Positions 32,009 to 59,418 of a DNA stretch of 64,000 bases are shown one piece after another. Source of the stretch: Roseibium sp. (GTDB lineage: Bacteria > Pseudomonadota > Alphaproteobacteria > Rhizobiales > Stappiaceae). Location: positions 1-64,000 of the forward strand of contig JAEPNV010000016.1 of assembly GCA_017643215.1 (NCBI GenBank). The letters run 5' to 3'. The translations under genes and the position numbers were made by a program. Every line of letters starts with the position of its first letter. The stretch's first letter is position 1. The notes under the pieces were generated by a model. That model did no database searches. It saw only the letters and a program-made list of their open reading frames with translations, and was not told the DNA's origin.

Positions 32009-32033
32009 GCTGGATCCTCATGGCCTTCGCAGC

Positions 32034-32885: not shown

Positions 32886-33811
32886 CAACGCGCTCCTTTT
32901 TCGTTCTTATTCAGCCGCATGAGGAACCACACGATGTAGACGTTCATGATCAGGAACAGCACCGTGGCGATCGCAGACGCGTAACCCATCCGATACCTGA
33001 AGATCGCGTTGTCATACATGTAGTAGGCCAGCACGTTGGAAGAGTTGTAGGGCCCGCCTTCGGTCATGATGGCGACAAGGTCGAATGACCGCAGCGCACC
33101 GATGACGGTCACAACGAGCGCGATGAATGTTGCCGCCTTCAACTGCGGCAGGATGATTTTCACGAGAAGCCGCCAGCCCTTGGCTCCATCCAGTCGTGCC
33201 GCTTCGATCATCTCCGGATTCACGCTGTTCAACCCGGTCAGATACAAGATCATGCAATAAGCGGTCTGCGGCCAAAGCCCGGCAACGATGATGCCGAAGG
33301 TCGCCCAGTTTTCATCCGCAAGGATTGGGGGAAGACTTACGCCAAGCGGATCGAGCAATGTCGCCAGCAATCCAAACGCAGGATCATAAAACCAGGCAAA
33401 GACCAGGCCGACGACGATTTGCGACACGACGAACGGGAAGAAGAAAAGCGATTTGACGAGCCTTATGCCGTAAACGTTCTGGTTGAGAAACAATGCAACG
33501 AACAGACCCAGAACCGGCGCCAAGAGAAAAAACACGAGCCAATAGATGTTGTTGACCAACGACTTCCAAAACACCGGATCGTCTAAAAGAAGCCGGTAGT
33601 TGTTGAATCCCACCCACTTTTTCGGACCGATCCCTTGCCATTCGGTGAAGGACAGAGCGATCGACTGAATGATCGGGTAGATCACAAAGATTGAGAACAT
33701 CGCGAAGGCCGGCGCGATGAAAACGAGCGGCATGATGAGCAGCTTGTGCTTTCGAAAAAAGGTTACTGACCTTTCCGCTCGGTGATCGGTCATGATCGTT
33801 ATCTCGGCCAT
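32885..33811 (-). CDS. Sugar ABC transporter permease, MalF/UgpA type
   Basis: A 308-residue permease with six membrane helices; the first follows the short basic leader (RKHKLLIMPLVFIAPAFAMF). The EAA loop is EAARLDGAKGWRLLVKIILP near residue 215. It pairs with the downstream permease to form the membrane channel. GGGAG lies 8 bases before ATG 33811. The gap from the binding-protein gene is 60 bases. Confidence 0.92.
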   Translation of the reverse strand: MAEITIMTDHRAERSVTFFRKHKLLIMPLVFIAPAFAMFSIFVIYPIIQSIALSFTEWQGIGPKKWVGFNNYRLLLDDPVFWKSLVNNIYWLVFFLLAPVLGLFVALFLNQNVYGIRLVKSLFFFPFVVSQIVVGLVFAWFYDPAFGLLATLLDPLGVSLPPILADENWATFGIIVAGLWPQTAYCMILYLTGLNSVNPEMIEAARLDGAKGWRLLVKIILPQLKAATFIALVVTVIGALRSFDLVAIMTEGGPYNSSNVLAYYMYDNAIFRYRMGYASAIATVLFLIMNVYIVWFLMRLNKNEKGAR

Positions 33812-33871
33812 CGTGATGCTCCCCGTGAGGTCGGGACCGGAAAGAGAGCTCCCGGCCCCATGCGCGTTTGA

Positions 33872-35104
33872 TCAGAGTCCGCCGTAAATGCGCGCGCGCT
33901 CGGATTCGATGCGCTCGAGGATCTGATCGATCCGGTCGGGATTCTTAAGGAACTCCTGGAAGCCCTGCATGCCGACGCGGGCCAGCGCGGGATCGGTGTC
34001 GCGATCATAGAACTGCATGATCCCGTCAGCCTTGCTGAGCTGGGCAAAGCCGCCCTTCGCAAAACGGTCGTCTTTGACCGAGGCGTTGACATTCGGCGGC
34101 AGCATATCGAGCGTCGCGGCCGTCTTGGTCTGCACATCCGCCTGCGCGGCGAAGGCAAGGAACAGACGAGCATCCTCCTTGTTTTTCGCATTGACGGGAA
34201 TGTGGAAGCTGTCGGTCGGCGCGTCCTCATAAATCCCGACTTCTGGGTCGATCGTCGGGAACGGGAACCACTCCACCTGCTTACGGACATCTTCGGGGAA
34301 CATCGACACGATGAACGGCGCGAGCAGATACATCGCCGCCTCGCCCTGGTTCATGAACGGCAGTGCCTCTTGGAACGAATAGCCGGCGTGGTTGTCGATA
34401 TAGAAATCCGCCTTGACCAGTTCGCCCCATTTCTCGAAGACGTTCTTCACGCGCTCGTCCGTATAGGCGACCCTGCCGTCCATCAGATCGGCATGGAATT
34501 CGACGCCGTTGATCCGAAGGTTCAGGAAGTCAAACCAGCCGGCTGCGGGCCAGAGGTTCTTCGTGCCGATCGTGACCGGGGTGATTCCGGCGGCGTTAAG
34601 CTGCGCCCCAACCTCAAGGAACTCCTCCCAATTCGTAGGAGTTTCCGTGATCCCCGCCTTTTCGAAAAGGTCCTTCCGATAGTAGAAACCCCAGGCATAA
34701 TAAGCGTAAGGAACACCGTACTGTTTGCCGTCGACCGAGGACGCACCGACCACGGCAGGCATGCTCTCATAGAGCCCCTCGGCTTTCCAAACGTCCGACA
34801 CGTCCTCCAAAAGCCCAAGGTCAACAAAGACCTTCATCCGGTTGCCCGCGTTCCAGGTGATGAGATCCGGGGCATCTGAAACCAGGAAGTTGCGCATCGC
34901 GGTTTTGAAGGCTTCGTGGTCGTAAAGGTTGAACTTCACGTCAATGTCGGGATAGGCCGCCTCGAAGTCGGCGATTAGGTCTTCCATCGCCTGTTTCTGC
35001 GCCGGGTCCGACGTGTTCGCGTTCATCACCAGATCGCGCGCAGAAGCTGTCGTTGCAAAGGCTGCCAGTGCAACTGCGCATACGGCCGTCTTGAAGTGTC
35101 TCAT
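33872..35104 (-). CDS. Periplasmic sugar-binding protein, cluster A
   Basis: A 410-residue extracellular solute-binding protein (family 1, CUT1 type). Signal peptide: MRHFKTAVCAVALAAFATTASA, cleaved before about residue 23. The mature part has the family pattern DLIADFEAAYPDIDVKF, PDLITWNAGNRMKVFVDLG, YGVPYAYYAWGFYYRKDLFEKAGI and MNQGEAAMYLLAPF. Many Trp and Tyr residues suit a sugar or polyol ligand, but the ligand is unknown. AAGGAAGG lies 5 bases before the ATG. A TetR-type palindrome at 35213 lies 109 bases upstream, suggesting its own regulated promoter. Confidence 0.92.
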   Translation of the reverse strand: MRHFKTAVCAVALAAFATTASARDLVMNANTSDPAQKQAMEDLIADFEAAYPDIDVKFNLYDHEAFKTAMRNFLVSDAPDLITWNAGNRMKVFVDLGLLEDVSDVWKAEGLYESMPAVVGASSVDGKQYGVPYAYYAWGFYYRKDLFEKAGITETPTNWEEFLEVGAQLNAAGITPVTIGTKNLWPAAGWFDFLNLRINGVEFHADLMDGRVAYTDERVKNVFEKWGELVKADFYIDNHAGYSFQEALPFMNQGEAAMYLLAPFIVSMFPEDVRKQVEWFPFPTIDPEVGIYEDAPTDSFHIPVNAKNKEDARLFLAFAAQADVQTKTAATLDMLPPNVNASVKDDRFAKGGFAQLSKADGIMQFYDRDTDPALARVGMQGFQEFLKNPDRIDQILERIESERARIYGGL

Positions 35105-35212
35105 TGTCCTTCCTTTCCCTAGAAGCGGCCGCAGATTGCGCGCCGATGTCTTGGCCGATTGATCCGACCATTCCCGAGCCCATTCGAGCGGGCTAGAAGC
35201 TCAATTTTTTTA

Positions 35213-35228
35213 AACTCACTGGTGAGTT
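35213..35228. promoter_or_regulatory. Putative TetR operator 1
   Basis: The palindrome AACTCAC-TG-GTGAGTT has 7-base perfect arms and a 2-base centre. It lies upstream of the binding-protein gene and just touches the stop codon of the MaoC gene. The same core recurs at 40003 and 40937. Confidence 0.65.
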
Positions 35229-35727
35229 ACTTTCCACTTGCAAAGCCCTGATCCTTTTCCCTTATGCGCATCAAAAGCGCGTTTCTTCCGGCCTGTACCG
35301 TGATGCCGTTTTGGTTCGTTACATCGAACCCCAGCTGGACGACGCCCCGGTCACCGCTGGAGGTGACGCGCATGTCCTCAACCAAAATGGTCGCGCCGAT
35401 ACTGTCGCCAGCCACAATAGGCGCCTTGAACGACCATTCATTCCAGCCGAGCGATGCGACCGCCTGCAGCTGTACTTCGGCGCGGTTCTTCAATCCGTCG
35501 GCAAGGCAAAGGCCCAGCAGACCGTGAGCGATCCGTCCCGGAAAACCCTGTTCACGGGCGAATTCGTCATCCATGTGGACGTCAAAGAAGTCTCCAGACA
35601 GCCCTGCGAAAGCCACGATGTGCGACTCTGTCACAGTAATCCGTCCCGTCCGGAAGAATGCTCCGACATGAAGGTCGTCATAGTACGCCTTGCCCGCCGG
35701 CAACCGTGATTGCTGTGCGTCCATCAT
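35227..35727 (-). CDS. MaoC-family acyl-CoA hydratase
   Basis: A 166-residue single hot-dog-fold hydratase. The catalytic Asp/His region is FAGLSGDFFDVHMDDEFARE near residue 43, with FPGRIAHGLLGL as the conserved helix. R-specific enoyl-CoA hydratases use this motif as G-D-x-N-P-x-H; here it reads GDFFDVH, so the Asp and His are kept but the Asn-Pro is not. It would add water to, or remove it from, a CoA thioester made by the CoA-transferase of the cluster. Its ATG overlaps the end of the ATPase gene by 4 bases. Confidence 0.85.
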   Translation of the reverse strand: MMDAQQSRLPAGKAYYDDLHVGAFFRTGRITVTESHIVAFAGLSGDFFDVHMDDEFAREQGFPGRIAHGLLGLCLADGLKNRAEVQLQAVASLGWNEWSFKAPIVAGDSIGATILVEDMRVTSSGDRGVVQLGFDVTNQNGITVQAGRNALLMRIREKDQGFASGK

Positions 35728-36851
35728 GCCGCTGCTGCCCGTGTCCGGATCGCTCCCGCGGATGTGCTCAGCGTCCGGCCCTGATCATCGAAGAGGTGAC
35801 AGTAGTCATCCTTGACAAGGGCGGTCACCGCCATTCCGGACCGGGGCGGCGTTTCGCTCTCGGCCTTGAGGATCACCTCCTGTGACGCATTCGTCCTGCC
35901 ATAGACGTAGGCGATCCCGCCGAGGTTTTCGACGACATCTACTAAGACCTTGAGGCCTGCGCCACCGGGCGTTCCAAGGAAATGCTCCGGCCGGATACCG
36001 ATTGTCACGGCTTGTCCAGGCGCGACCTGCGCGCCTTCGCGGAGCGGAATGCGAAGGATGTGGTCAGGCGCGTCCGGAACCGAGACCCGGGCTTCACCGT
36101 TCGTGCCATCGACGACCTGAGCCTTCAGGAAGTTCATCTGTGGCGACCCGATAAACCCGGCTACGAAACGGTTGTCAGGCGACATGTAAAGATCGAGCGG
36201 CGAGCCGATCTGCTCGACCACACCATCGCGCAGAACGACAATCTTGTCGGCCATGGTCATCGCTTCGACCTGGTCGTGGGTGACGTAGATCATGGTCGCG
36301 CCGATCTCGTTGTGCAGCTTCGACAATTCGACTCGCATCTGAACCCGAAGCTCGGCATCGAGATTTGAAAGCGGCTCGTCAAACAAGAAAACCTTGGGTT
36401 CACGCACGATGGCCCTGCCGATCGCCACGCGCTGACGCTGGCCGCCCGACATCTCCTTCGGCTTGCGATCCAGAAGATGGGTGATCTGCAGGATTTCGGC
36501 TGCCCGCTTCACGCGTTTTTCGACAACGCTCTGGGGGGTCTTTGCCATCCGCAGGGCAAAGCTCATGTTTTCGGCGACCGTCATGTGCGGGTAAAGCGCA
36601 TAGGACTGAAAAACCATCGCGGTTCCCCGTTCCGAGGCTTCGACATCGCTCATGTCCTCGTTGCCGATCAGCAATTGACCAAACGTGATTTTTTCCAGTC
36701 CGCAGATCATCCGCAGCAGCGTGGACTTGCCGCAGCCGGAAGGACCGACGAACACCACGAATTCACCATGCTTCGCTTCGAGATCGACGCCCTTGATGAC
36801 GTCAATCGGACCGAAGGATTTGCGCACGTTCTTCAGGATTACATCAGCCAT
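35724..36851 (-). CDS. Sugar ABC transporter ATP-binding protein, UgpC/MsmK type
   Basis: A 375-residue ATPase. Walker A is GPSGCGKSTLL near residue 37, signature MSGGQRQRVA near 133, Walker B VFLFDEPLSNLD, switch His in YVTHDQVEAMTM. The C-terminal 130 residues form the regulatory TOBE/OB domain typical of MalK-like subunits. Powers the importer made of the genes at 32034, 32885 and 33872. It is separated from its permeases by the MaoC and binding-protein genes, so uptake and catabolism are interleaved in one operon. Confidence 0.93.
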   Translation of the reverse strand: MADVILKNVRKSFGPIDVIKGVDLEAKHGEFVVFVGPSGCGKSTLLRMICGLEKITFGQLLIGNEDMSDVEASERGTAMVFQSYALYPHMTVAENMSFALRMAKTPQSVVEKRVKRAAEILQITHLLDRKPKEMSGGQRQRVAIGRAIVREPKVFLFDEPLSNLDAELRVQMRVELSKLHNEIGATMIYVTHDQVEAMTMADKIVVLRDGVVEQIGSPLDLYMSPDNRFVAGFIGSPQMNFLKAQVVDGTNGEARVSVPDAPDHILRIPLREGAQVAPGQAVTIGIRPEHFLGTPGGAGLKVLVDVVENLGGIAYVYGRTNASQEVILKAESETPPRSGMAVTALVKDDYCHLFDDQGRTLSTSAGAIRTRAAAA

Positions 36852-36881
36852 GTGCCTGCTCCTTGATTGATTGAACCAGCA

Positions 36882-38381
36882 TCATGCGCCCTCGACCCAG
36901 CGTTCCGACTGCCTGCCGACCTGGAGATGGACGGATTTCAATTCTGTATATTCCTCGACCCCGTAGCGGCCGGTTTCGCGGCCATTTCCGGATTGCTTGA
37001 ACCCACCTAGCGGGAGTTCCGGAAACCCTTGAAGCGCCGAGTTCACCCAGACGCGGCCAGCCCTGATCCGCCGCGAGCAGGCAAGCGCTGTCGAGAGATC
37101 GTTGGTCCAGACATAGGCCGCGAGCCCAAAGTCCGAGTCATTGGCAAGGCGGATCGCCTCATCTGCCGTCTTAAAGGACATGACCGAAAGAACCGGACCG
37201 AAGATCTCTTCGCGCGCCACGCACATATCGGGTGTAACATTGGCGAGGACCGTGGGCGGATAGAAAAGTCCGGAGTGGTTTTCGGGGTCACCGCCGCAGA
37301 CGATATCAGCTCCCTCACGCACCCCGTCCCGCACCAGCTCCGAGATCCGGTCGTACTGTGCCTGGTTGATGATCGCGCCGATCCGCGACGCTGGATCCAG
37401 GGGATCGCCCATCCGAAGATCCTCGAGCCGTTCGGCGAGGCGGTTCTGAAATGCCTCGGCGATCCTCGCCTCGACAAGCAGCCGCGATCCCGCGATGCAG
37501 CATTCGCCCATGTTGATGGTCGCCGCCTTGATCACGCCGTCGACGGCAGCATCCAGATCACAATCAGCGAAGACGAGCGAGGGGGATTTGCCGCCAAGTT
37601 CCAGCGAGAGCTTCTTGATATTGCCCGCCGACGCAGCGATCGTTGCGCGCCCCACACGGGTCGATCCGGTGAAGGCCACCATATCAACGTCATTGCTGTC
37701 GATGATTGCCTGTCCGACCGGATCGCCGGTGCCGGCGATGATATTGCAGACGCCGTCGGGCAAACCGGCTTGCTTCAGGTAGCGGGCCAGCATCAGAGCC
37801 GTTCCGGACGTGAATTCGCTCGGCTTCACCACCACCGAACAGCCTGCCGCCAACGCGAAGGGCAGCCGCTCGGAGAGGATCAGAAGCGGAAAATTCCATG
37901 GGGTGATGATGCCCACCACGCCAATCGGTTCCCGCAGAACGAGGCCGAGCATCGACTGCCCAAGCGTGTTGTGGCTGTCGCCCGACAACATGCGTGCCGC
38001 ACCAGCGGCGTAGTCCCAAAGTTCGGCTGCGAACATCACTTCGCCGCGCGCCGCATCAAGTGGCTTGGAGGTCTCGAGCGTTTCGACCAGCGCCAGTTCC
38101 TCGGCATTCTGCCGGATCAAGCGCGCGACGTCCCGCAGAACCCTTGCCCGCTCACCCCCGTATTCAAACGCCCAATGGCCGGCATCGAAACTGTCACGCG
38201 CGGCCGTTATTGCGGCCTCGGCATCCGCCCGGGTGGATGCCGGGTAGGTGCCTACCAATCGACCATGCGCCGGGCTTTCTCGTTGAATGACACCGCCATC
38301 GGCCGCGCCATTGAACACACCGGCGATGAAATTCTGATGTGTGATAGGCGCCTCGAAGAGGCGGTTCGCGAGATCAAGCAT
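36882..38381 (-). CDS. NAD(P)-dependent aldehyde dehydrogenase, cluster A
   Basis: About 499 residues. The cofactor-binding TPWNFPLL, the FTGSTRVGR turn, the general-base Glu in LELGGKSPSLVF, and the nucleophile Cys in GECCIAGSRLLVE are all present, as is EIFGPVLSV near the end. It oxidises an aldehyde to the acid. It resembles the cluster B enzyme at 51363 closely (shared SHNTLG, MLG-V-L-EPIGVV, AGCxxVVKPSE, and the unusual double Cys in GECC). I start it at 38381, overlapping the CoA-transferase end by 8 bases; an upstream start at 38450 is possible but adds no family sequence. Confidence 0.92.
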   Translation of the reverse strand: MLDLANRLFEAPITHQNFIAGVFNGAADGGVIQRESPAHGRLVGTYPASTRADAEAAITAARDSFDAGHWAFEYGGERARVLRDVARLIRQNAEELALVETLETSKPLDAARGEVMFAAELWDYAAGAARMLSGDSHNTLGQSMLGLVLREPIGVVGIITPWNFPLLILSERLPFALAAGCSVVVKPSEFTSGTALMLARYLKQAGLPDGVCNIIAGTGDPVGQAIIDSNDVDMVAFTGSTRVGRATIAASAGNIKKLSLELGGKSPSLVFADCDLDAAVDGVIKAATINMGECCIAGSRLLVEARIAEAFQNRLAERLEDLRMGDPLDPASRIGAIINQAQYDRISELVRDGVREGADIVCGGDPENHSGLFYPPTVLANVTPDMCVAREEIFGPVLSVMSFKTADEAIRLANDSDFGLAAYVWTNDLSTALACSRRIRAGRVWVNSALQGFPELPLGGFKQSGNGRETGRYGVEEYTELKSVHLQVGRQSERWVEGA

Positions 38382-39969
38382 GACCGGCAACCGTTTTTGA
38401 AAGGGGAGCGTCGCCGATTTCAGGCTGATCACCCGAGAAACACTGTGCACCCATCAACGTGAGATCCGGCGCGATCGCGGGCTTGAACGCCATACGATCC
38501 AAAACATGCCGCTCAAGGTCGATGCCCGGCGCGATCTCGACGAGTGTCAACCCGCCCTCTGTCAACCGGAACACGGCGCGCTCGGTTACATACAAAACCG
38601 GTTTGCCTTGCTTCAGAGCCGAGGGGCCGCAGAAGGTGACCTCGCGCACGCGTTCGACGAATTTTGGTATGCGGCCATCGCGCTCAATTGAGAGTTGCCC
38701 GTTGTCCGACCGAACGGCCAGGCCGCTGGCCTCGAAGGTGCCGCAGAACACAACGGCCTTGGCCCCTTGCGAGATGTCGACGAAGCCGCCCGGACCAACA
38801 ACGTCTTGCCCCAAGCGCGACACGTTCACGTTTCCCACGGAATCGATTTCTCCAGAGCCCAGAAAGGCGATATCGATGCCGCCGCCGCTATAAAAGTCAA
38901 ACTGATCGGTCGATCGCATGATGGCGCTCGGAGACGCTGCCGCGCCGAACAAGGGTCCGTCGATCAGCTGTCCGTTGTGGATGCCCTGTTCAACTGTCAG
39001 CCATATGTCCTTGAGCCGGGCCTGCGCCGTCAGCACCGCCGCAATGCCGCCGGGAATGCCAAACCCGAAATTGATGGATTGCCCTGTTTGGATCTCGTCG
39101 GCAGCGCGGCGCGCAATGATCGCGCGCGCGCCGGTCGGTAGCGACAGCCCCTCGAACTTCGCGGCAATGGCGTCTCCGGAACCCGGCAATCCGGCGAGGC
39201 CCGGCTCATAGCCCCCGACATGTGTCTGGGGCTGGTTGGGAGCCAGAACCACCCGATCCACAAGGACGCCGGGCACCTGGACCAGACGGGCAAGGCACTC
39301 ATTCGCTTTCCGTATCTCCCGAACCTGCGCCAAGACGCGCCCGCCGGAGTTCTTCGCGGAAAGCGCTACGGCATTTGCATCGAGGTCGCCGGCTTCTTCG
39401 GCACAGGAGATGTTGCCCTGTTCGTCGCAATAGGTGCCGCGCACGATTGCGATGTCGGGCCGGATCGGCAGGTACCGGATGTATTCTTCGCCGCCGAGCG
39501 CAACGATCTCGCTCAATGGCTCGACCGCCCTCGCCGCATCGTTTGCAGCCCCGCCACCGAAACGGGGATCATAAGCGGTGTTTAAACCCGTTCTGGTAAT
39601 GAGGCCCGGCCGGTTCGCCCCGCTCTCTCGCAGCGACAATGAAATCACGCCAGACGGCAGGGTGAATGCCTCGATCAGGTTTTCGCGCGCAAGCTTCTGC
39701 ATGCGGGGAGACCACGACCAGTGGCCGCCGATCACGCGACGAACCATACCCTCATGGGCGAAGCGATTTACGCCCCGTTCTTTTGCATCACCGACACCCA
39801 AGGCGTGAACCAAGACCAGATCGCGCGGGTGACCCGTTGCCAGGAACCGCGCCTCGATAGCGGCAAAGATCTCATCCGCCTCAAGCATGCCGCCGCCGTT
39901 TCCGGTGATCGCGATCGTGTCGCCATCTCTGATGCACTGGGCGGCTCGGCTGGCCGAAACTTCGATCAC
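38374..39969 (-). CDS. Single-chain family I CoA-transferase, cluster A
   Basis: About 531 residues with both CoA-transferase halves in one chain, as in YdiF-type acetate/propionate CoA-transferases. The first half starts DGDTIAITGNGGGMLEADEIF; the second carries the catalytic Glu327 in TVEQGIHNG and ends with VVFCGTFEASG and GLTLVEIAPGIDLERHVL. It would move CoA from acetyl-CoA or a similar donor to an acid made by the pathway. I start it at GTG 39969 because GGAGG lies 5 bases before it; the ATG at 39981 has no ribosome site. It is the first gene of the minus operon and follows putative operator 2. Confidence 0.9.
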   Translation of the reverse strand: MIEVSASRAAQCIRDGDTIAITGNGGGMLEADEIFAAIEARFLATGHPRDLVLVHALGVGDAKERGVNRFAHEGMVRRVIGGHWSWSPRMQKLARENLIEAFTLPSGVISLSLRESGANRPGLITRTGLNTAYDPRFGGGAANDAARAVEPLSEIVALGGEEYIRYLPIRPDIAIVRGTYCDEQGNISCAEEAGDLDANAVALSAKNSGGRVLAQVREIRKANECLARLVQVPGVLVDRVVLAPNQPQTHVGGYEPGLAGLPGSGDAIAAKFEGLSLPTGARAIIARRAADEIQTGQSINFGFGIPGGIAAVLTAQARLKDIWLTVEQGIHNGQLIDGPLFGAAASPSAIMRSTDQFDFYSGGGIDIAFLGSGEIDSVGNVNVSRLGQDVVGPGGFVDISQGAKAVVFCGTFEASGLAVRSDNGQLSIERDGRIPKFVERVREVTFCGPSALKQGKPVLYVTERAVFRLTEGGLTLVEIAPGIDLERHVLDRMAFKPAIAPDLTLMGAQCFSGDQPEIGDAPLSKTVAGHA

Positions 39970-40002
39970 TCTAACCTCCATCTGGGGGGCTGATCTTTAA
40001 TT

Positions 40003-40018: not shown

Positions 40019-40072
40019 ATATACAAACGGCGCACCTGTCAATCGCTTTGAAGTGCCCGGCTTCAAGTTTTT

Positions 40073-40891
40073 TCAATCCCACGTCGGCGCATAGGAAACG
40101 ACGTTTGCATTGCTGATGCGATAACCGGTGGCCGTGAGCGCATCGACCTGTCGCATTTCTTCGGGATTGAGTGAAAAATCCATGATGTCGAAATTCGCGC
40201 GCATGTTCGCACAGCGCGTGGACATCGTATTCATTGTGACGTCTTTTTGCAGGATCCATCGTAATGTAACCTGCGCGGCGCTCTTTCCATGGCGCTCACC
40301 GATCTCTTCAAGAAGCGGATATTTGAAAATCTCGCCCCGTGCGATGGAACAATAGGAAGACAACGGAATGCCCGTCTCCGCAGATGCCGCTAAAAGTTTT
40401 TCCTGGTTCAACAGAGGATGAAATTCGACCTGATTGACGGTCACGGGAACATCCATCACAGCCACGGCTTTTCGCATCATGGCCGTCGTGTAGTTCGAGA
40501 CACCCACACGGCGCGCATATCCCAAACGATGCGCCTCTTGCAGCAACTCAAGGGAAGGCTCCACCGGGTCGTCGCCTGGTGGCCAGTGCAAAAGAAGCAC
40601 GTCGATGACGTCCAGCTTTAGATCGCGCAGGCTTTGTTCCACCGACGGCATGAACCGCGCTGCAACCATATTGTCAGGCAGAACCTTGGTGGTGATGAGA
40701 AGATTGTCGCGCGGAATATCGAGGCTCGACAGGACCGCACCCAAGTCCGCCTCGTTGCCGTACCATTGCGCGGTATCAAACGCGCGATATCCAATCTCAA
40801 CCGCATCGCGGACGGCCGCGGCCAGCACCTCTCCCTTCAGTGGGAATGTTCCAAAGCCGCGCTGAAACACGCTCTGATTATAGACAGACAT
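40073..40891 (-). CDS. Aldo/keto reductase
   Basis: A 272-residue AKR-fold reductase. Catalytic residues: Asp and Tyr in GYRAFDTAQWYGNEADLG, Lys in LLITTKVLPDN, His in VLLLHWPPGD. The NADPH-binding end is LRWILQKDVTMNTMS. Reduces a carbonyl, or oxidises the reverse way, in the cluster A pathway; the substrate is unknown. GAGGGG lies 6 bases before ATG 40891. It is divergent from the Dabb gene with the third operator between them. Confidence 0.9.
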   Translation of the reverse strand: MSVYNQSVFQRGFGTFPLKGEVLAAAVRDAVEIGYRAFDTAQWYGNEADLGAVLSSLDIPRDNLLITTKVLPDNMVAARFMPSVEQSLRDLKLDVIDVLLLHWPPGDDPVEPSLELLQEAHRLGYARRVGVSNYTTAMMRKAVAVMDVPVTVNQVEFHPLLNQEKLLAASAETGIPLSSYCSIARGEIFKYPLLEEIGERHGKSAAQVTLRWILQKDVTMNTMSTRCANMRANFDIMDFSLNPEEMRQVDALTATGYRISNANVVSYAPTWD

Positions 40892-40924
40892 ATAAACCCC
40901 TCAATTCATGCGGATCGCATTTTC

Positions 40925-40960
40925 CCCTTGATAACTCACTCACTGGTGAGTTATCAAGGG
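40925..40960. promoter_or_regulatory. Putative TetR operator 3, two overlapping palindromes
   Basis: A perfect 15-base inverted repeat, CCCTTGATAACTCAC (40925-40939) and GTGAGTTATCAAGGG (40946-40960), with spacer TCACTG. Inside it sits the core found at the other two sites, CACTCACTGGTGAGTT (40937-40952). It lies between the divergent AKR and Dabb genes and could control both. Confidence 0.7.
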
Positions 40961-41007
40961 CGCAAGAGCAAATAGTTGTGTTGCGCGACCGACAAGAAGG
41001 CACGGAT

Positions 41008-41319
41008 ATGATCAGGCACCTCGTCTTTCTCAAATACTCCGAGGACGTCACCAAAGATTCGAGGGATGCGCTCATGCGCGACCTCGAGGCGCTCAAGAAT
41101 GAGGTCCAAGGGATCGAGACCTTTTGTGCCCGACCGAACATGTCCCCGGAAACACCGCTCATCCATGGGTTCAAGGAGATGTTTTGGTTCGATTTCCGGG
41201 ATGCGCAAGCGCGCGATGCGTATCTCGCCAACGAAACCCACAAGGCGATCGGCGCGCGCCTCATGGCCAGCCTCGACGGCGGAGTGAATGGCATCTTTGT
41301 GTGCGATGTCGAACTCTAG
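41008..41319 (+). CDS. Dabb (stress-responsive A/B barrel) domain protein, cluster A
   Basis: A 103-residue dimeric alpha+beta barrel protein. It begins MIRHLVFLKYSEDVTKDSRD, with the family's His-x-V-x-x-K/R start, and ends with the G-V-N-G-I-F-V-C-D-V strand. Members are small enzymes or metabolite-binding proteins, such as olivetolic acid cyclase. A second Dabb protein lies at the matching place in cluster B (61008), also next to an SDR and DUF993 gene, so it has a specific step in the pathway. First gene of the plus-strand operon. Confidence 0.88.
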   Translation: MIRHLVFLKYSEDVTKDSRDALMRDLEALKNEVQGIETFCARPNMSPETPLIHGFKEMFWFDFRDAQARDAYLANETHKAIGARLMASLDGGVNGIFVCDVEL

Positions 41320-41332
41320 GTCCGCACCGGAG

Positions 41333-42109
41333 ATGAGCACATCGCGACCCATAGCCCTTGTGACCGGGGCAAGCAGGGGCATCGGCCGGGCCATTGCGCT
41401 TGAACTGGCCCGCAACGGCTTTGACCTGGCCGCAAACGACCTCTCTCATTCGAACGACCTGGAAACCGTCGTCGCCGAAATCAAGGCAAATGGTGTGGAT
41501 GCGCTCGCCCTGCCCTTTGATGTGAGCGACCTCGGCTCGCATGAGATTGCTCTGACCAACATCGAAAACGGCCTCGGTCCGCTGACAACGCTCGTCAACA
41601 ATGCCGGCGTCGGGGTCATGCACCGCGGCGATCCGCTTGACGTCAGCGAAGCGAGCTTCGAGCGCTGCATGACAGTCAACGCGAAAGCGCTTTTTTTTCT
41701 TTGCCAGGCAGTCGCGCGGCGGCTTCTGGCGCAGACGAGGGATCCGGCGCGGCCGCGATCAATCATTAACATCACCTCGTCCAATGCCACTGCGGTCGCG
41801 GTGCCGCGCAGCGAGTATTGCGCATCCAAGGCTGCCGCCGCGATGATTTCAAAGTGCTTCGCGGCGCGGCTGGGCCCTGAAGGAATTGCCGTTTATGACG
41901 TCCAGCCCGGACTGATCGAAACCCCGATGACCGAAGCCGTCATCGACGGTTACAAGCAGCGCGCGGCCGATGGCCTCTGCCTGTTTCCATGGGTAGGCAA
42001 GCCCGAAGATGTCGCCCAAGTCGTTGCGAGCCTTGCAACCGACCGGCTCCCCTACACCACCGGACATGTCATCTCAGTCGATGGCGGCATGCTCGTCCCC
42101 AGATTCTGA
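41333..42109 (+). CDS. SDR-family oxidoreductase, cluster A
   Basis: About 258 residues of the classical short-chain dehydrogenase type: TGASRGIG binds the nucleotide, NNAGVG and the catalytic set Ser-x(n)-YCASK are present (PRSEYCASKAAAAMI), and the C-terminal GHVISVDGGM is typical. Paralogue of the cluster B enzyme at 58650, with which it shares the EYC-SKA active site, QPGLIETPMT/RPGIIETGMT and the same length. An ATG at 41306 overlapping the Dabb gene is the other start option; neither has a good ribosome site, which suggests translational coupling. Confidence 0.9.
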   Translation: MSTSRPIALVTGASRGIGRAIALELARNGFDLAANDLSHSNDLETVVAEIKANGVDALALPFDVSDLGSHEIALTNIENGLGPLTTLVNNAGVGVMHRGDPLDVSEASFERCMTVNAKALFFLCQAVARRLLAQTRDPARPRSIINITSSNATAVAVPRSEYCASKAAAAMISKCFAARLGPEGIAVYDVQPGLIETPMTEAVIDGYKQRAADGLCLFPWVGKPEDVAQVVASLATDRLPYTTGHVISVDGGMLVPRF

Positions 42110-42120
42110 AAGATGTCCCT

Positions 42121-43269
42121 ATGAAGATCTCCCTCCCTGATACAAGAGGCCACCTGGCAGAGTATCGATTGGTCGGCGAGCCGGTGGCGCCTGTCTCAAT
42201 GACGCCAGACAGCGCACGCGTCGTCTACTCCGCGGCCCATGTCGTCCGCGATCCCTTCGCCGACGTCGATCTTTCAGGGCCGGCGGCGATAGACTGGGAT
42301 GCGACCCTTGCCTTTCGCGGGCATCTGGTCGGACTGGGGTTGGGCGTGGCCGAAGCGATGGACACCGCGCAGCGCGGCATGGGGCTCGACTGGCTAAACG
42401 CGCTAGACCTGATCCGCCGCACGAAATCCGCATTCCCCGACGCCTTGGTCGCCAATGGCTGCGGGACAGATCATGTTGATCCGGCTGACGTTGAGACATT
42501 GGATGACGTCATTGGCGCATATCTCGCACAGGTCGAGGCCATACAGTCTGCTGGCGGGCGCATCATCCTGATGGCGAGCCGCGCGCTCTGCCGGGCCGCG
42601 CGCGGCCCAGAAGACTACGCGAAAGTGTACGGCCGCGTATTGAACGCCTGCGACGCGCCGGTGATCCTGCATTGGCTGGGCGAGATGTTCGATCCCGCGC
42701 TCGCGGGATATTGGGGCGCGGCGGATTTTGCCTCGGCGCTCGACACGGTCCTGGACATCATCAAGGACAATGTCTCGAAGGTCGATGGCATCAAGGTCTC
42801 GCTGCTCGACGCCCAAAAGGAAATCGAAATGCGCCGCCGGCTTCCGCCGCCGGTCCGCATGTTTACTGGGGATGACTTCAATTATCCCGAACTGATCGCC
42901 GGAGACGATGAAGGGTTCAGCCATGCGCTTCTGGGAATTTTCGATCCCCTTTCCGTGCACGCCGCAAGCGCCGTGCAGAAGCTGACCGCGGGAGACCGCA
43001 CGGGCTTCCGCGCCATTCTCGACCCGACCGTTCCGCTGGCCCGGCACATCTTCCGGGCGCCGACGCACTATTACAAGACAGGTGTTGTCTTCCTTGCCTG
43101 GCTGAATGGTCACCAATCGCATTTCACGATGATCGGCGGGGCCGAAGCGATGCGATCGCTGCCCTATTTCGTCGAGTGCTTCAAAAAGGCCGATGCCTGC
43201 GGCGCCCTCGCCAAACCCCATCTTGCCGTCGAGCGCATGCAATCCCTTCTCCGTCTTTATGGGGTGTAG
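42121..43269 (+). CDS. DUF993-family TIM-barrel protein, cluster A
   Basis: A 382-residue protein of the DUF993 family, distantly like dihydrodipicolinate synthase. Function unknown. Conserved with the cluster B copy at 61353: GLGVAEAMDTAQRGMG, GGRIILMASRA, VILHWLGEMFDPAL, YWGAADF, KVDGIKVSLLD, FTGDDFNYPELI and FLAWLNGHQSHF. Lys225 in GIKVSLL sits where DHDPS-type aldolases keep the Schiff-base Lys (GIK-E-A), so a retro-aldol or related lyase reaction is my best guess. It starts 11 bases after the SDR stop, and the sugar isomerase gene follows after 5 bases. Confidence 0.88.
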   Translation: MKISLPDTRGHLAEYRLVGEPVAPVSMTPDSARVVYSAAHVVRDPFADVDLSGPAAIDWDATLAFRGHLVGLGLGVAEAMDTAQRGMGLDWLNALDLIRRTKSAFPDALVANGCGTDHVDPADVETLDDVIGAYLAQVEAIQSAGGRIILMASRALCRAARGPEDYAKVYGRVLNACDAPVILHWLGEMFDPALAGYWGAADFASALDTVLDIIKDNVSKVDGIKVSLLDAQKEIEMRRRLPPPVRMFTGDDFNYPELIAGDDEGFSHALLGIFDPLSVHAASAVQKLTAGDRTGFRAILDPTVPLARHIFRAPTHYYKTGVVFLAWLNGHQSHFTMIGGAEAMRSLPYFVECFKKADACGALAKPHLAVERMQSLLRLYGV

Positions 43270-43274
43270 CCGGG

Positions 43275-44123
43275 ATGCGGGATTTTTCCGAAGACACGTC
43301 TGCACTTGCTCTCAATACCGCGACGCTGGGACATAACCTCGACGGTTACGGCGCAGGTTGGCCCCTGGAGCGCGTGATCGATACCTGCGCATCCCACGGC
43401 TTCGGCGGGATCGTGTTCTGGCGCCGCGAGATCGGCACGAACGCGATTGAGATCGGCAATCGGGTCCGCGCGGCCGGAATGCATGTCACCGGGCTTTGCC
43501 GGACCCCGTATCTCGTCGGCTCCGGGCGGCCCGATGCGTGGTTCGACGAAACCCGCGGGAGCATCGACATGGCTGCCGCTCTGGGAACAACGGTTTTGAC
43601 GGTGGTCACCGGCGGCACAGAGCCCGAAACAAAGGGCACGATCGAAACGAAGAAGGTTCTTGCCGAGCGGCTCGCCCGGGTGAGCGACTACGCGGCGGCC
43701 GGTGGGGTCCGCCTCGCGCTCGAACCGCTCAACCCGATGTATGGCGGCAACCGTACGTGCCTGATGACGGTGCGCGACGCGTTGAACGTCTGTGAGATGG
43801 TCGGCCATGACGCCCTGGGCATCGCCGTCGACGTCTATCATGTGTGGTGGGACAGCAATCTGAAGGAAAGTTGTAAAGCCGCCGGCAGCCGTATCATCGG
43901 CTATCATCTGTGCGACTGGCTCGAGAACACGTCGGACATGCTTTTGGATCGCGGGATGATGGGAGACGGCGTTGCCGACCTGAAGGCAATCCGCGACGCG
44001 GTCGAATCCGCAGGCTATGCGGGTGCCTGCGAAGTCGAGATCTTCTCGAGCGACAGATGGTGGAAGGCCCGGCCGGACCGCGTGCTGAGGACAATAGCCG
44101 ACCGGTTCAAGACCGTGTGCTGA
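43275..44123 (+). CDS. Sugar-phosphate-isomerase/epimerase-like TIM barrel
   Basis: A 282-residue xylose-isomerase-like TIM barrel of the AP-endonuclease 2 superfamily. Metal-ligand candidates are Glu in VRLALEPLNPMYGGN, Asp/His in GIAVDVYHVWWDSNL, His in IIGYHLCDWLENTSD and the late Glu in CEVEIFSSDRWW. Could be an isomerase, epimerase, dehydratase or 3-keto-glycoside deglycosidase, since all occur on this fold. Start at ATG 43275, five bases after the DUF993 stop. No equivalent lies in the visible part of cluster B. Last gene of the plus operon. Confidence 0.87.
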   Translation: MRDFSEDTSALALNTATLGHNLDGYGAGWPLERVIDTCASHGFGGIVFWRREIGTNAIEIGNRVRAAGMHVTGLCRTPYLVGSGRPDAWFDETRGSIDMAAALGTTVLTVVTGGTEPETKGTIETKKVLAERLARVSDYAAAGGVRLALEPLNPMYGGNRTCLMTVRDALNVCEMVGHDALGIAVDVYHVWWDSNLKESCKAAGSRIIGYHLCDWLENTSDMLLDRGMMGDGVADLKAIRDAVESAGYAGACEVEIFSSDRWWKARPDRVLRTIADRFKTVC

Positions 44124-48018: not shown

Positions 48019-49020
48019 ATGCGTTGGGGCCTCGTTGGCGCGAGCCGGATTGCATCCAGTTACATGATTGACGCGCTCCGCGCGCAAGATGGCGCCGACG
48101 TCGTGGCGGTTTTGAGCTCCGATGCGGCGCGCGGCCGGGACTTTGCCGGAACGCACGGCATCGCCCACAGTTTCACCGACCTCGACGCGCTCCTGACTGA
48201 GGCCGATGTCGATGCGGTCTACATTTCCACCACCAACGAAAAGCACCATCGCCAGGCCATGGCGTCAATCGCCGCCGGCAAGCATGTCCTGTGCGAAAAG
48301 CCGCTCGCCATGACGCTGGTCGATGCCGGCGAGATGGTCCGCGCCGCGGCGGCCCGGGGCGTTGTCTTTGCCACCAATCATCACCTGCGCAACGCCGGAT
48401 CGCATCTGGCCATCAAGGCGCTGATCGACGGCGGACGGATCGGCAATGTCCTGAGCGCCCGGGTGTTCCACGCCGTCAACCTGCCCGAGCACCTGCGCGG
48501 ATGGCGGATCAACGATGCGGCCGCCGGCGGCGGCGTCATTCCCGACATTGTCGTCCATGACGCGGACACGATCCGGTTTCACCTGTCCGAGGATCCGGTC
48601 GATGTGATTGCAAAGGCCGGAACGTCAGGGCTCGGCGAAGGCGTCGAGGACAGCGTCATGTCGGTCTGGTCGATGCCCTCCGGCGCCATGGTGCAAACCC
48701 ACGAGAGCTTCACCCATGCGTTCGCCGGAACCGGCATTGAGTTCCATGGCACCAAGGGATCGATCTTTGCCCGCAACGTCATGACCCAGCAACCGACCGG
48801 CGAGATCTGGCTGGTCGACGAATCCGGACGGCACGACATCACCTTTGACAGCCACAATCTCTACCACCGCTCGATGGGCCTGTTTCACGGTGCCGTCAAA
48901 GGTACGGGACGGCCCTCGGCCGACGGACCTGACGGGGTGAAATCGCTCGCGGTTGCGCTCGCGGTTTCAGAAGCGGCCCAGACCGGCCAAACCGTGTCGG
49001 TCGACTACGGAGGTTTTTAG
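48019..49020 (+). CDS. Gfo/Idh/MocA oxidoreductase resembling 1,5-anhydro-D-fructose reductase
   Basis: A 333-residue NAD(P)-dependent sugar dehydrogenase. RWGLVGASRIASSYMIDAL is the nucleotide fold, the catalytic Lys is in HVLCEKPLAMTL near residue 98, and TNHHLRNAGSH and GGVIPDIVVHDADTIRF follow. From memory these segments match the 1,5-anhydro-D-fructose reductase of Sinorhizobium over most of its length (STTNExH, TNHHLRNA, RVFHAVxLPxHLxGWR, RNVMTQxPxG), closer than other family members I know. That suggests an anhydro-sugar or 2-keto-sugar substrate, but identity needs a proper comparison. First gene of the long plus operon; AGGA 5 bases upstream. Confidence 0.85.
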   Translation: MRWGLVGASRIASSYMIDALRAQDGADVVAVLSSDAARGRDFAGTHGIAHSFTDLDALLTEADVDAVYISTTNEKHHRQAMASIAAGKHVLCEKPLAMTLVDAGEMVRAAAARGVVFATNHHLRNAGSHLAIKALIDGGRIGNVLSARVFHAVNLPEHLRGWRINDAAAGGGVIPDIVVHDADTIRFHLSEDPVDVIAKAGTSGLGEGVEDSVMSVWSMPSGAMVQTHESFTHAFAGTGIEFHGTKGSIFARNVMTQQPTGEIWLVDESGRHDITFDSHNLYHRSMGLFHGAVKGTGRPSADGPDGVKSLAVALAVSEAAQTGQTVSVDYGGF

Positions 49021-49022
49021 CG

Positions 49023-50597
49023 ATGGCCTCCAAAATCGTATCGATGGACGACGCAGCGGGCCGGATCAAGGACGGCGCGGTGGTCACGGTTTCCTCCTCC
49101 TCCGGTCTGGGCTGCCCCGACAAGATGCTCGAAGCCATCGGCGCCCGGTTCGACCGGGAAGGCCACCCAAGAGGCCTGACGACGCTGCACCCGATCGCCG
49201 CCGGCGACATGTACGGCATCAAGGGCATCGACCACATCGCCAAGGATGGCCTGCTCTCGACGATCATCGCCGGCTCCTATCCCTCCGGTCCGTCCTCGCT
49301 GCCGATGCCGGAGATCTGGCGCATGCTGGTCGACAACCGGGTCGCAGCCTACAACGTGCCCTCCGGCATCCTGTTCGACATGCACAAGGACGTCGCCGCC
49401 CGCCGGCCGGGCGTGATGACCAAGGTCGGGCTCGACACGTTCGTCGACCCGATCCGCCAGGGCTGCGCCATGAACGATGCAGCAGCCCAAAAACCCATCG
49501 TGTCGCGGCTGGAGTTTGGCGGCGAGACCTGGCTGCATTTTCCCAATATCGTGCCGGATGTGGCGATCATCCGGGCAACCACGGCGGACGAGCGCGGCAA
49601 CCTCACCTATGAGCACGAGGGCGCCTATCTCGGCGGCCTGGAACAGGCGATCGCCGTGCGCAATCACGGCGGGCTGGTGATCGCGCAGGTCAAACGCGTG
49701 ACCGCCGCCGGCTCGCTGCGCCCGCACGACGTACGCGTGCCCGGGCATCTGGTTGACCTTGTCGTTGTCGATCCCGACCAGCGCCAGACCACCGAGACCG
49801 ACTACGATCCGGCAATTTCCGGCGAAATCATGCGCCCGTGGTCAAGCTTTACGCTGGCCGAACACGGCATTGAGAAGGTTGTCGCGCGCCGGGCGGCGAT
49901 GGAGCTGAAACAGGGGCAGACCGCCAATCTCGGCTTCGGAATTTCCGCCATGGTGCCGCGGGTGCTTCTGGAAGCCGGCCAGGAACAGGCGGTGACCTGG
50001 GCAATCGAACAAGGCGCGACCGGCGGCATGCCGCTCACCGGATTTGCCTTCGGCTGCGCGTCGAACGCCGATGCCTATGTCCCCTCCCCGCAGCAATTCA
50101 CCTATTTTCAGGGCGCCGGTTTCGACGTTTCGTTCCTGTCGTTCCTGGAAATCGACCTTGACGGCAACGTCAACGTCTCCAAGCTCGGCAAAAAGCCGTA
50201 TCTAACCGCCGGCTGCGGCGGCTTCGTCGATATCACCGCGCATGCGAAAAAGATCGTCTTCTCCGGGCTGTTCGAAGCCGGCGCGGATGTGGAATTGACC
50301 GACGACGCACTGACGGTCAAATCCCCGGGCAAGTTCACCAAGATGGTCGATGCGGTCGAGCACGTGACCTTCTCCGGTCTCCGGGCCCGCGAGACGGGGC
50401 AGGACGTCCTTTACATCACCGAGCGCTGCGTCATCAAACTCACCGACAGCGGATTGATCGCGACGGAAATCATGCCGGGCATCAATCCCGGCCGGGACAT
50501 CGTCGATGCCTCCAACGGCCGGGTCCGGGTCGCCAATGATGCGGTCGAAATGCCCAAGACGCTGTTGCGTCAGGCACCGATGGAGCTCGCCCTGTGA
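49023..50597 (+). CDS. Single-chain family I CoA-transferase, cluster B
   Basis: A 524-residue two-domain CoA-transferase, paralogue of the cluster A enzyme. The catalytic Glu329 is in WAIEQGATGGM. Shared landmarks are FGGGGAAND/QGCAMNDAAA-type region, PDVAIIRATTADERGN, a mid-chain L-V-D-x-V-V-x-x-P-x-Q-x-Q segment and the KVSKLG/GGFVDI ending. It activates a pathway acid as its CoA ester. It begins 2 bases after the Gfo/Idh stop and overlaps the enoyl-CoA hydratase gene by 4. Confidence 0.9.
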   Translation: MASKIVSMDDAAGRIKDGAVVTVSSSSGLGCPDKMLEAIGARFDREGHPRGLTTLHPIAAGDMYGIKGIDHIAKDGLLSTIIAGSYPSGPSSLPMPEIWRMLVDNRVAAYNVPSGILFDMHKDVAARRPGVMTKVGLDTFVDPIRQGCAMNDAAAQKPIVSRLEFGGETWLHFPNIVPDVAIIRATTADERGNLTYEHEGAYLGGLEQAIAVRNHGGLVIAQVKRVTAAGSLRPHDVRVPGHLVDLVVVDPDQRQTTETDYDPAISGEIMRPWSSFTLAEHGIEKVVARRAAMELKQGQTANLGFGISAMVPRVLLEAGQEQAVTWAIEQGATGGMPLTGFAFGCASNADAYVPSPQQFTYFQGAGFDVSFLSFLEIDLDGNVNVSKLGKKPYLTAGCGGFVDITAHAKKIVFSGLFEAGADVELTDDALTVKSPGKFTKMVDAVEHVTFSGLRARETGQDVLYITERCVIKLTDSGLIATEIMPGINPGRDIVDASNGRVRVANDAVEMPKTLLRQAPMELAL

Positions 50598-51361
50598 GCG
50601 CGCTGCATCTGATCCGGCACGGCACGACGGCCGAGTTGCGCCTGGACAATCCGGCCAAGCTGAACGCGTTCACCGTAGACATGCTCTCTGCCCTGGAGGC
50701 CCACTGCGCGGAACTGGAGCGGGACGCGGATATTCTCGCGGTCGTGATCACGGCGGAAGACAGCAAGGCGTTTTGCGCCGGCGCCGATATCGTTGCCTGG
50801 TCCGAACTGGAGCCGTGGGACTTCGCCCGGCACTGGGTGCGCGATGGGCACAGGATCTTTGATCGCCTGGCGCGGCTCAGCAAGCCGACGGTCGCGGCAC
50901 TTGGCGGGCATGCGTTTGGCGGCGGGTTGGAATTCGCCGCCGCCGCCGACATCCGTGTCATGGCGCCCGGCGCCACCCTTGCCCTCCCCGAGGCCGGCGT
51001 CGGTATCGTGCCCGGCTGGTCCGGCACGCAGCGTCTGATCCGGCTGTTGGGCGAACCACTGGTGAAGGAGATGGCCCTTTTTGGCCGCCGTGTTTCAGCA
51101 GACCGAGCTTTGGCGACAGGATTCATCGCTGCGATCGCGGACGATCCGCGCGCGGAAGCGTTCGAGATCGCCGGACGGCTGTCCGGCACATCACCGCGCG
51201 CCGTCGAGGTCGCGAAATACATGATCCACGCGGCTGCCGGCGAAGACCGCGGCGCCATGATCGAAACCCTAGGCGCGGGCATGATCGGGCCATCGGCCGA
51301 CCGGACCGAAGGTGTTGCCGCGTTCCGCGCCAAACGCAAACCCAGTTTCCCGGGGGCCTGA
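50594..51361 (+). CDS. Enoyl-CoA hydratase/isomerase (crotonase family)
   Basis: A 255-residue crotonase. The oxyanion hole is formed by FCAGADI and GGHAFGGGLEFA. Both catalytic Glu positions of true hydratases are kept: the Glu in GGGLE and the one in LALPEAGVGIVPGWSGTQRL. Hydrates or dehydrates the CoA ester formed by the preceding enzyme. GTG start overlaps the transferase stop (GTGA). It occupies the position that a MaoC hydratase holds in cluster A, an example of unrelated enzymes filling the same slot. Confidence 0.91.
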   Translation: MSALHLIRHGTTAELRLDNPAKLNAFTVDMLSALEAHCAELERDADILAVVITAEDSKAFCAGADIVAWSELEPWDFARHWVRDGHRIFDRLARLSKPTVAALGGHAFGGGLEFAAAADIRVMAPGATLALPEAGVGIVPGWSGTQRLIRLLGEPLVKEMALFGRRVSADRALATGFIAAIADDPRAEAFEIAGRLSGTSPRAVEVAKYMIHAAAGEDRGAMIETLGAGMIGPSADRTEGVAAFRAKRKPSFPGA

Positions 51362-51362
51362 C

Positions 51363-52895
51363 GTGACCGACCTGACTGTGATTTCCGCCGCCCGCGCCAC
51401 ACTTCCCGACACGCCGTTCGCCGCGCGGCACTTGATCGACGGCGTGTGGTGCGACAGCGCCGACGGCGCGACCTTTGATCGTGTCTCCCCGTCCCATGGG
51501 CACGTGGTGACCAAGGCCGCCAAAGGCGGCGCGAAGGATGTCGCGCACGCGATTGAAGCGGCCCGGCTCGCATTCGACGCCGGCACCTGGTCGCGGTCGA
51601 GCGGCAAGGACAGGGCGGCGCTCCTTTTGAAGGTCGCCGATCTGATCGACCGCGAGTGCGAGCGGATCGCAATGATGGAGACGCTTGAATCCGGCAAGCC
51701 GATCAGCCAGGCGAAAGCGGAGATCGAGGGCGCGGCCGACCTTTGGCGTTATGCGGCGGCGCTCGCACGGACCATGCACGGCGAAAGCCACAACACACTC
51801 GGTGACAACATGCTGGGCGTGGTGCTGAAGGAACCAATCGGGGTCGTGTCGATCATCACACCGTGGAATTTTCCGTTCCTGATCGTTTCGCAAAAACTGC
51901 CCTTCGCGCTGGCGGCCGGGTGCACGGCGGTGGTCAAACCGTCCGAGATGACCCCCGCGACCACTGTCATTTTGGGCGAGTTGCTGGTCGAGGCCGGACT
52001 GCCGGCCGGCGTCGTCAACATCGTCCTGGGCTATGGTGAGCCGGTGGGCACGGCGATGACGACCGACAGCCGGGTGGACATGGTCACATTCACCGGCTCA
52101 ACCGGTGTCGGCAAGGCAATCGTCAAGGCCGCGGCGGCCACCTTGAAGAAGGTGTCGCTGGAGCTCGGCGGCAAGAACCCGCAAGTGATCTTCCCGGACG
52201 CGGATCTCAATAGTGCGGTCGACGCGGTGGTGTTCGGCGTTTACTTCAATGCCGGCGAATGCTGCAATTCCGGCTCGCGCATCCTGGTGCATGAAGACAT
52301 TGCCGAAGACTTCATCGCCCGCACGGTGGCCCTTTCGCGGGACGTTCCGTTCGGCGATCCGCTCGACCCGGACACCAAGGTCGGCGCGATCATCACGCCA
52401 CAACACCAGGAAAAAATTGACAGTTACGTGAAAGAGGCGGCCAAATCAGGGGCTCAGGTCCGGCTCGGCGGCGCACCGCTGTCCGTGGCCGGCCTTGACG
52501 GGCAGTTCTATCAGCCGACCGTGGTCGCCGATGTCACCCGAGACATGCCCATCGCCCGCGAAGAGGTGTTCGGACCGGTGCTGTCAGTTCTGACGTTCTC
52601 GTCGCTGGAGGAGGCGATCAGCTTGGTGAACGACGCGGAATACGGACTGTCGGCGGGCGTGTGGAGCGAAAATGTTCACACCTGCCTGGAATTTGCCCTG
52701 CGCGCCCAGGCCGGGACGGTTTGGACGAACACCTGGATGGACGGGTATGCCGAACTGCCGTTCGGCGGGGTAAAGGAAAGCGGTCAGGGCCGGGAGCTCG
52801 GCCGCTACGGATTGGATGAGTTTCTCGAGGCAAAAACGGTGACGATGCGGATTGGCCGCACGCGCGCGCCTTGGGTTCAGCCGCGAACGGACTGA
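51363..52895 (+). CDS. NAD(P)-dependent aldehyde dehydrogenase, cluster B
   Basis: About 510 residues. TPWNFPFLIVSQKLPFA, FTGSTGVGKAIV, the base Glu in LELGGKNPQVIF, the nucleophile in GECCNSGSRILVHE and EVFGPVLSVL are intact. Closest relative in the window is the cluster A enzyme at 36882, including the double Cys. The start is GTG 51363, one base after the hydratase stop; a frame open to 51312 overlaps that gene and is less likely. The acid it makes is a candidate substrate for the CoA-transferase. Confidence 0.92.
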   Translation: MTDLTVISAARATLPDTPFAARHLIDGVWCDSADGATFDRVSPSHGHVVTKAAKGGAKDVAHAIEAARLAFDAGTWSRSSGKDRAALLLKVADLIDRECERIAMMETLESGKPISQAKAEIEGAADLWRYAAALARTMHGESHNTLGDNMLGVVLKEPIGVVSIITPWNFPFLIVSQKLPFALAAGCTAVVKPSEMTPATTVILGELLVEAGLPAGVVNIVLGYGEPVGTAMTTDSRVDMVTFTGSTGVGKAIVKAAAATLKKVSLELGGKNPQVIFPDADLNSAVDAVVFGVYFNAGECCNSGSRILVHEDIAEDFIARTVALSRDVPFGDPLDPDTKVGAIITPQHQEKIDSYVKEAAKSGAQVRLGGAPLSVAGLDGQFYQPTVVADVTRDMPIAREEVFGPVLSVLTFSSLEEAISLVNDAEYGLSAGVWSENVHTCLEFALRAQAGTVWTNTWMDGYAELPFGGVKESGQGRELGRYGLDEFLEAKTVTMRIGRTRAPWVQPRTD

Positions 52896-54189: not shown

Positions 54190-54199
54190 TCGACCGGAC

Positions 54200-54227
54200 G
54201 GAAGGCGGCCTCGCGCGGCCGCCTTCC
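54200..54227 (+). promoter_or_regulatory. Stem-loop after the binding-protein gene
   Basis: A perfect 11-base stem, GGAAGGCGGCC (54200-54210) and GGCCGCCTTCC (54217-54227), with loop TCGCGC. In ABC operons such hairpins stabilise the binding-protein mRNA so that it outnumbers the permeases. No T-run follows, so full termination is unlikely. Confidence 0.7.
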
Positions 54228-54247
54228 ACCCCGCCAGGAGATCCGAA

Positions 54248-56052: not shown

Positions 56053-56056
56053 GACT

Positions 56057-59408: not shown

Positions 59409-59418
59409 GGACAGTGTG

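Follow-up and report, generated by a model that had tools for sequence, protein, structure and literature searches.

In the part of PMC3369909 available to us, dihydrodipicolinate synthase (DHDPS) of Escherichia coli is described with a catalytic triad of T44, Y107 and Y133 and with K161 binding the substrate. Closest to the DUF993 (PF06187) proteins studied here is SMc04132 of S. meliloti, itself a DUF993 member, whose crystal structure (4dnh) was released in 2012 as that of a hypothetical protein under an entry title that states no function. SMc04132 keeps the motif GIKISLL and shows no basic difference from our two proteins; it also appears in a regulon table in the accessible part of PMC12542648. 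Our literature searches returned no paper on DUF993, PF06187 or 4DNH, with no biochemistry or phenotype found, and nothing related on the partner genes, 3JU2, SMc04130 or 3OQB. In 40 plasmid rows listed, the product names were "dihydrodipicolinate synthase family protein" (n = 11), "DUF993 family protein" (n = 1) and "hypothetical protein" (n = 1), with 27 lacking a feature name. These NCBI product names already imply a broad DHDPS placement, which is thus not new; new here are the active-site reading, a set of bridge proteins and a three-gene cassette.

The two DUF993 genes and their clusters

The stretch of DNA analysed here, 64,000 nucleotides in all (the window), carries two DUF993 genes on the forward strand, copy 1 (P0001, 42121..43269, 382 aa), a proposed class I lyase, and copy 2 (P0002, 61353..62516, 387 aa). 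Both match the PF06187 profile over its full length (588.9 and 575.4 bits, cut-off 24), and a search of the genome for PF06187 gave these two matches. The copies are identical at 192 of 381 aligned residues. The PF00701 profile matched neither at E ≤ 5, and NCBIfam models matched both far below cut-off only. An earlier note on this DNA had described a GIK-x-SLLD motif in the two copies, and the translations bear it out, with GIKVSLLD at residues 223–230 of copy 1 and GIKISLLD at residues 227–234 of copy 2. The lysine of this motif, the proposed Schiff-base residue, is Lys225 in copy 1 (codon 42793..42795, forward strand) and, by alignment of the copies, Lys229 in copy 2 (codon 62037..62039, forward strand). 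The motifs DDFNY, LHWLG and DTAQRG that the note had listed are likewise present in each copy.

A short-chain dehydrogenase (SDR) is encoded directly upstream of copy 1 (41288..42109, forward strand, PF13561/PF00106; these are ORF bounds and the true start may be later). Directly downstream is the gene of a xylose-isomerase-like TIM barrel of the sugar phosphate isomerase/epimerase type (43275..44123, forward strand, PF01261, start read from the sequence), whose best PDB match is 3ju2, "uncharacterized protein SMc04130". The Pfam scan of chosen ORFs in the window placed the other members of cluster 1 on the reverse strand: a GMC flavin oxidoreductase (29720..31321, PF00732/PF05199), a sugar-type ABC importer with two permeases, a binding protein and a MalK-like ATPase (32034..36851, including a MaoC-like gene at 35227-35727), an aldehyde dehydrogenase (36882..38450, PF00171), a CoA-transferase (38374..39981, PF01144) and an aldo/keto reductase (40073..40891, PF00248). 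Sulfate activation genes lie before this cluster (24749-28552), comprising a GTPase/APS kinase fusion, a PAPS reductase and an inositol-monophosphatase family member.

By the same Pfam scan, cluster 2 lies on the forward strand and begins with a Gfo/Idh/MocA dehydrogenase (48019..49020, PF01408), followed by a CoA-transferase, an enoyl-CoA hydratase family protein and an aldehyde dehydrogenase (49023..52895), a sugar-type ABC importer (52945..57166) and, upstream of copy 2, a short GMC oxidoreductase, an SDR and a long GMC oxidoreductase (57169..61011). A LacI-type regulator gene comes directly after copy 2 (62522..63529). The ORFs scanned between 48019 and 63529 included no isomerase-like gene. 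Beside this cluster, at 46611-47657, is a dehydrogenase of the 3-hydroxyisobutyrate/tartronate-semialdehyde/threonate type, whose scores stayed under the thresholds of the NCBIfam models listed.

The clusters at 29720-44123 and 48019-63529 are paralogous gene by gene, with identities of 52% for GMC, 52% for the ATPase, 50% for DUF993, 49% for the aldehyde dehydrogenase, 40% for SDR and 37% for the CoA-transferase. Such pairing would fit the duplication of one pathway or its acquisition on two occasions, possibly to handle two related substrates. Between them lie genes for tRNA-Gln (44564-44638, reverse strand) and tRNA-Pro (44927-45003, forward strand). tRNA genes are a usual kind of island insertion site.

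Fold, homology and the conserved lysine

An AlphaFold2 model of copy 1, made with 18 relatives, has a mean pLDDT of 90 and eight barrel strands, with Lys225 within strand 6 (residues 221–226). Its best fold match is 4dnh (58% identity by Foldseek, Z 53.4 over 378 residues), and from rank 2 to rank 39 Foldseek lists entries with dihydrodipicolinate synthase or DapA in their titles (E 3e-9 to 5e-8). The best DHDPS match, 3si9 (Foldseek E 3.3e-9), superposes at 2.4 Å over 285/294 residues (VIA Z 29.3). The modeled protein thus has the (β/α)8 barrel and C-terminal helices of the N-acetylneuraminate lyase (NAL)/DHDPS superfamily.

The direct profile match between DUF993 and DHDPS is modest at 55–82%. 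When hhalign compared DUF993 with 16 DHDPS-family proteins, it returned E 1.2e-4 (55%) with 19 DUF993 sequences and E 1.1e-5 (82%) with 169, as against E 0.14–0.45 for five sets of control proteins drawn from four families, of which two are likewise TIM barrels (one xylose-isomerase-like set, two of aldo/keto reductases, one Gfo/Idh and one SDR). The alignment paired K225 unprompted with the Schiff-base lysine of DHDPS, K161 in E. coli. Together with the strand 6 position in the model, this pairing agrees with the proposal in the earlier note that Lys225 occupies the place of the reactive lysine, a placement predicted from profile alignment and modeling. It bears indirectly on one of the two refuting outcomes named in that note, a lysine away from the barrel mouth. 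An HMM search of PDB sequences with the DUF993 profile A1 recovered 4dnh; even at E values as high as 10, no DHDPS appeared.

A chain of bridge proteins connects the two families. Protein L205 from an actinobacterial genome (L205:1399-2424) scores 24.4 bits against PF06187 (cut-off 24) and matches DUF993 profile A1 at 96% (E 4.7e-9). By BLASTP it also matches L217 (E 1e-9), which is a PF00701 protein at 155 bits, and the lysine is aligned at every step from DUF993 through L205 to L217. The model of L205, computed from an alignment of seven sequences that included three DUF993 proteins and one PF00701 protein, matches DHDPS at 3.8e-12 and 4dnh at 2.7e-11. In a 16-sequence alignment of DUF993, bridge and DHDPS proteins, four columns are invariant and the lysine is one of them. 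DUF993 is a divergent branch of the DHDPS/NAL superfamily, by fold and homology.

L205 and its relatives L215 and L216 form a small actinobacterial family between DUF993 and PF00701 (57–60% identical). L215 and L216 fall below the PF06187 cut-off, and for L215 Pfam gave nothing at E ≤ 5. The row for L216 in alignment A4 extends too far at the N-terminus and is truncated at the C-terminus. The frame upstream of L205 (542-1390) looks by eye like an isomerase-type barrel and has no Pfam match.

Wide loss of the lysine, which the earlier note had named as the other outcome that would speak against its reading, was not seen. Lys225 is invariant in all 169 of the 170 unique DUF993 sequences that reach the site; the remaining one is a truncated fragment with a gap there. 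The peptide seeds of the genome scan were of the TGDDFN and AEAMDTA types, and Lys225 lies outside them. Copy 1 has 12 lysines, 11 of which fell in scored columns of the 170-sequence alignment, and only K225 and K319 are invariant (169/169 each), the latter in a helix after the barrel. The invariance of Lys225 is weak evidence when taken alone, because K319 is invariant too and 75 columns are conserved at ≥ 98.5% in this set. With a median pairwise identity of 58% (lowest 40%, 3000 sampled pairs) and 15 clusters at 60% identity, the conservation test is fair, not deep.

The conserved columns are concentrated at the C-terminal ends of the barrel strands. Defining the strand-end zone ourselves as 2 residues before to 5 after the end of each strand, we found 27 of the 75 conserved columns within 64 of 380 positions (Fisher p 4e-6), the kind of clustering in the model that an active site would show. 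The conserved positions at the strand ends feature polar side chains, among them H40, D81, D117, H184, D251 and D252. D81 and T82 are present in 170/170 sequences, and L212, a divergent sequence with 43% identity to copy 1, retains the lysine and His184 with an altered DDFNY.

At the position of Tyr133 in strand 5, DUF993 has His184 (169/169), so the canonical tyrosine is absent. L205 and L217 have Phe at this position, which makes His184 special to DUF993 among the proteins compared. The GTTGE motif after strand 2 is replaced by DTAQRG. Thr44 was paired with T82 by both hhalign and MAFFT, whereas the DT motif found in DUF993 and the bridge proteins alike favors D81 as the counterpart of T44 and T82 as that of T45, a shift of one residue that makes the Thr44 position ambiguous. 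For Tyr107 the partner is L156 (hhalign) or R154 (MAFFT), neither of them a tyrosine. In TGDDFNY, the GDD aligns with the G-D/E-D motif that follows strand 7 in DHDPS. As Tyr133 and GTTGE are not kept, a pyruvate-type mechanism is not to be assumed; a lysine retained while its helpers are exchanged points to a Schiff-base lyase that takes a different substrate rather than to a pyruvate-dependent DHDPS.

Gene neighborhoods in other genomes

Gene context was tallied at 57 of 80 genome loci, those of at least 19 kb, with the 23 shorter loci omitted; the 80 are the best of at least 577 confirmed matches and so lean towards close relatives. Background was taken from 20 windows of 20 kb in four genomes, and genes were counted as lying in a row if neighbors among those recognized by 25 queries were no more than 400 bases apart. 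A row of dehydrogenase, DUF993 and xylose-isomerase-like genes occurs at 49 of these 57 loci, with a Gfo/Idh dehydrogenase in 31 and an SDR in 18. Within the same selection, the isomerase-like gene is present at 55/57 loci (0/20 in the background), Gfo/Idh at 37/57 (0/20) and SDR at 24/57 (2/20). Less frequent at these loci are CoA-transferase (19/57 vs 0/20), acyl-CoA dehydrogenase (18/57 vs 2/20), GMC (16/57 vs 0/20), aldehyde dehydrogenase (14/57 vs 0/20), enoyl-CoA hydratase (11/57 vs 1/20), glycerate kinase (8/57 vs 0/20), a second aldo/keto reductase (6/57 vs 1/20) and HIBADH (1/57 vs 1/20).

The trio follows an NMT1-type ABC transporter in Bradyrhizobium (locus L089) and a LacI regulator in Streptomyces (locus L112). 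The partner dehydrogenase at L089:8668-9834 has the PDB relative 3oqb, named only "Oxidoreductase". A PfkB-type carbohydrate kinase is encoded several kb from the trio at both loci (L089:497-1402 and L112:17149-18051). In Paracoccus, Sagittula, Octadecabacter and on plasmid pAO1, the clusters also contain varying sets drawn from a GMC oxidoreductase, an aldehyde dehydrogenase, a CoA-transferase, a glycerate kinase and an ABC importer; glycerate kinase is absent from the Sagittula cluster and CoA-transferase from that of pAO1. Mihasan and colleagues have reportedly worked on a sugar operon of pAO1. We found nothing on that operon in the portion of PMC10494377 that was accessible.

The DUF993 family is widespread. 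Among sampled genomes, matches above the PF06187 threshold occur in 40 of 150 from the window's order, in 36 of 398 from its phylum and in 24 of 296 from the phylum of a Streptomyces, this last figure including bridge protein L205.

A proposed reaction and its alternatives

We consider it likely that DUF993 proteins are class I (Schiff-base) lyases, whether the reaction is a retro-aldol cleavage or an elimination. This prediction, already put forward in the earlier note, gains support from the retention of the lysine across the family and from its DHDPS-aligned position. DUF993 is probably a retro-aldolase that acts on a keto compound supplied by the neighboring dehydrogenase. A Gfo/Idh or SDR dehydrogenase, whose gene lies immediately upstream, would make a ketone with which Lys225 would form a Schiff base (imine); enamine chemistry would then break a C-C bond, most likely by retro-aldol cleavage, with Schiff-base elimination as the second choice. 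The xylose-isomerase-like protein encoded downstream may isomerize or epimerize the substrate or a product. For the larger clusters, a possible route for a C3 product is release as glyceraldehyde and conversion by the aldehyde dehydrogenase and glycerate kinase to glycerate and then 2-phosphoglycerate. The partner genes suggest that the substrate is a polyhydroxylated compound that is oxidized to an acid and a CoA ester. From homology and context we infer the Schiff base, the retro-aldol cleavage, the order of steps and the substrates.

More specifically, we tentatively suggest that DUF993 could be a Schiff-base lyase on the NAL barrel in which the Thr-Tyr-Tyr triad has been exchanged for His184 and Asp81/Thr82. 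It would act on a keto-sugar or 3-keto acid, not a 2-keto acid, as part of an unrecognized three-enzyme sugar catabolic cassette with dehydrogenase and isomerase-like partners that is common to Pseudomonadota and Actinomycetota.

Inositol catabolism proceeds through a dehydrogenase and then a dehydratase, and some NAL relatives eliminate water. The partnership of Gfo/Idh and xylose-isomerase-like proteins resembles this pathway, and 5hwj, annotated as a keto-deoxy-D-galactarate dehydratase, is listed by Foldseek as a fold match at rank 40. A Schiff-base dehydratase or other eliminase, in which Lys225 forms the imine and water is lost with no C-C cleavage, is a sub-case of the lyase that we regard as rather doubtful: the aldehyde dehydrogenase (14/57) and glycerate kinase (8/57), present at a minority of the loci from the best 80 of at least 577 matches, suit the release of a C3 aldehyde better.

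It is unlikely that Lys225 is kept for substrate charge or for structure, and that, on this fold, acid-base or metal chemistry is the work of His184, Asp81 or Asp251. That the DHDPS triad is not kept would fit such a role, and H40, D81, D117, H184, D251 and D252 could bind a metal; however, the lysine is among only four invariant columns in the 16-sequence alignment of DUF993, bridge and DHDPS proteins, and the triad is not kept there. The reading as an ordinary DHDPS or pyruvate aldolase, which follows the NCBI product name and shares the fold, is very improbable and was rejected, since DUF993 has no PF00701 match and does not keep Tyr133 and GTTGE, and the genome separately carries six PF00701 matches, of which the best scores 300.9 bits.

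The Schiff-base lyase reading turns an unnamed family into a specific, testable hypothesis in sugar breakdown, built on one lysine, one unusual histidine and two partner enzymes. Structures have been solved for relatives of each of the three cassette members (4dnh, 3ju2 and 3oqb), so that a direct substrate search is possible; none of their listed names points to a reaction for the cassette.

DUF993 resembles DHDPS/DapA and the NAL superfamily (PF00701, including N-acetylneuraminate lyase, KDG aldolase and YagE) in its barrel, C-terminal helices and strand 6 lysine, and differs from them in length (∼380 versus ∼290 residues) and in giving no direct Pfam match. A parallel is DUF2090, which, in the part of PMC9007349 available to us, became an aldolase candidate in the same way, through a conserved catalytic lysine and pathway context. 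DUF2090 belongs to another aldolase family and its case includes fitness data, whereas that for DUF993 is built from sequence, fold and gene context.
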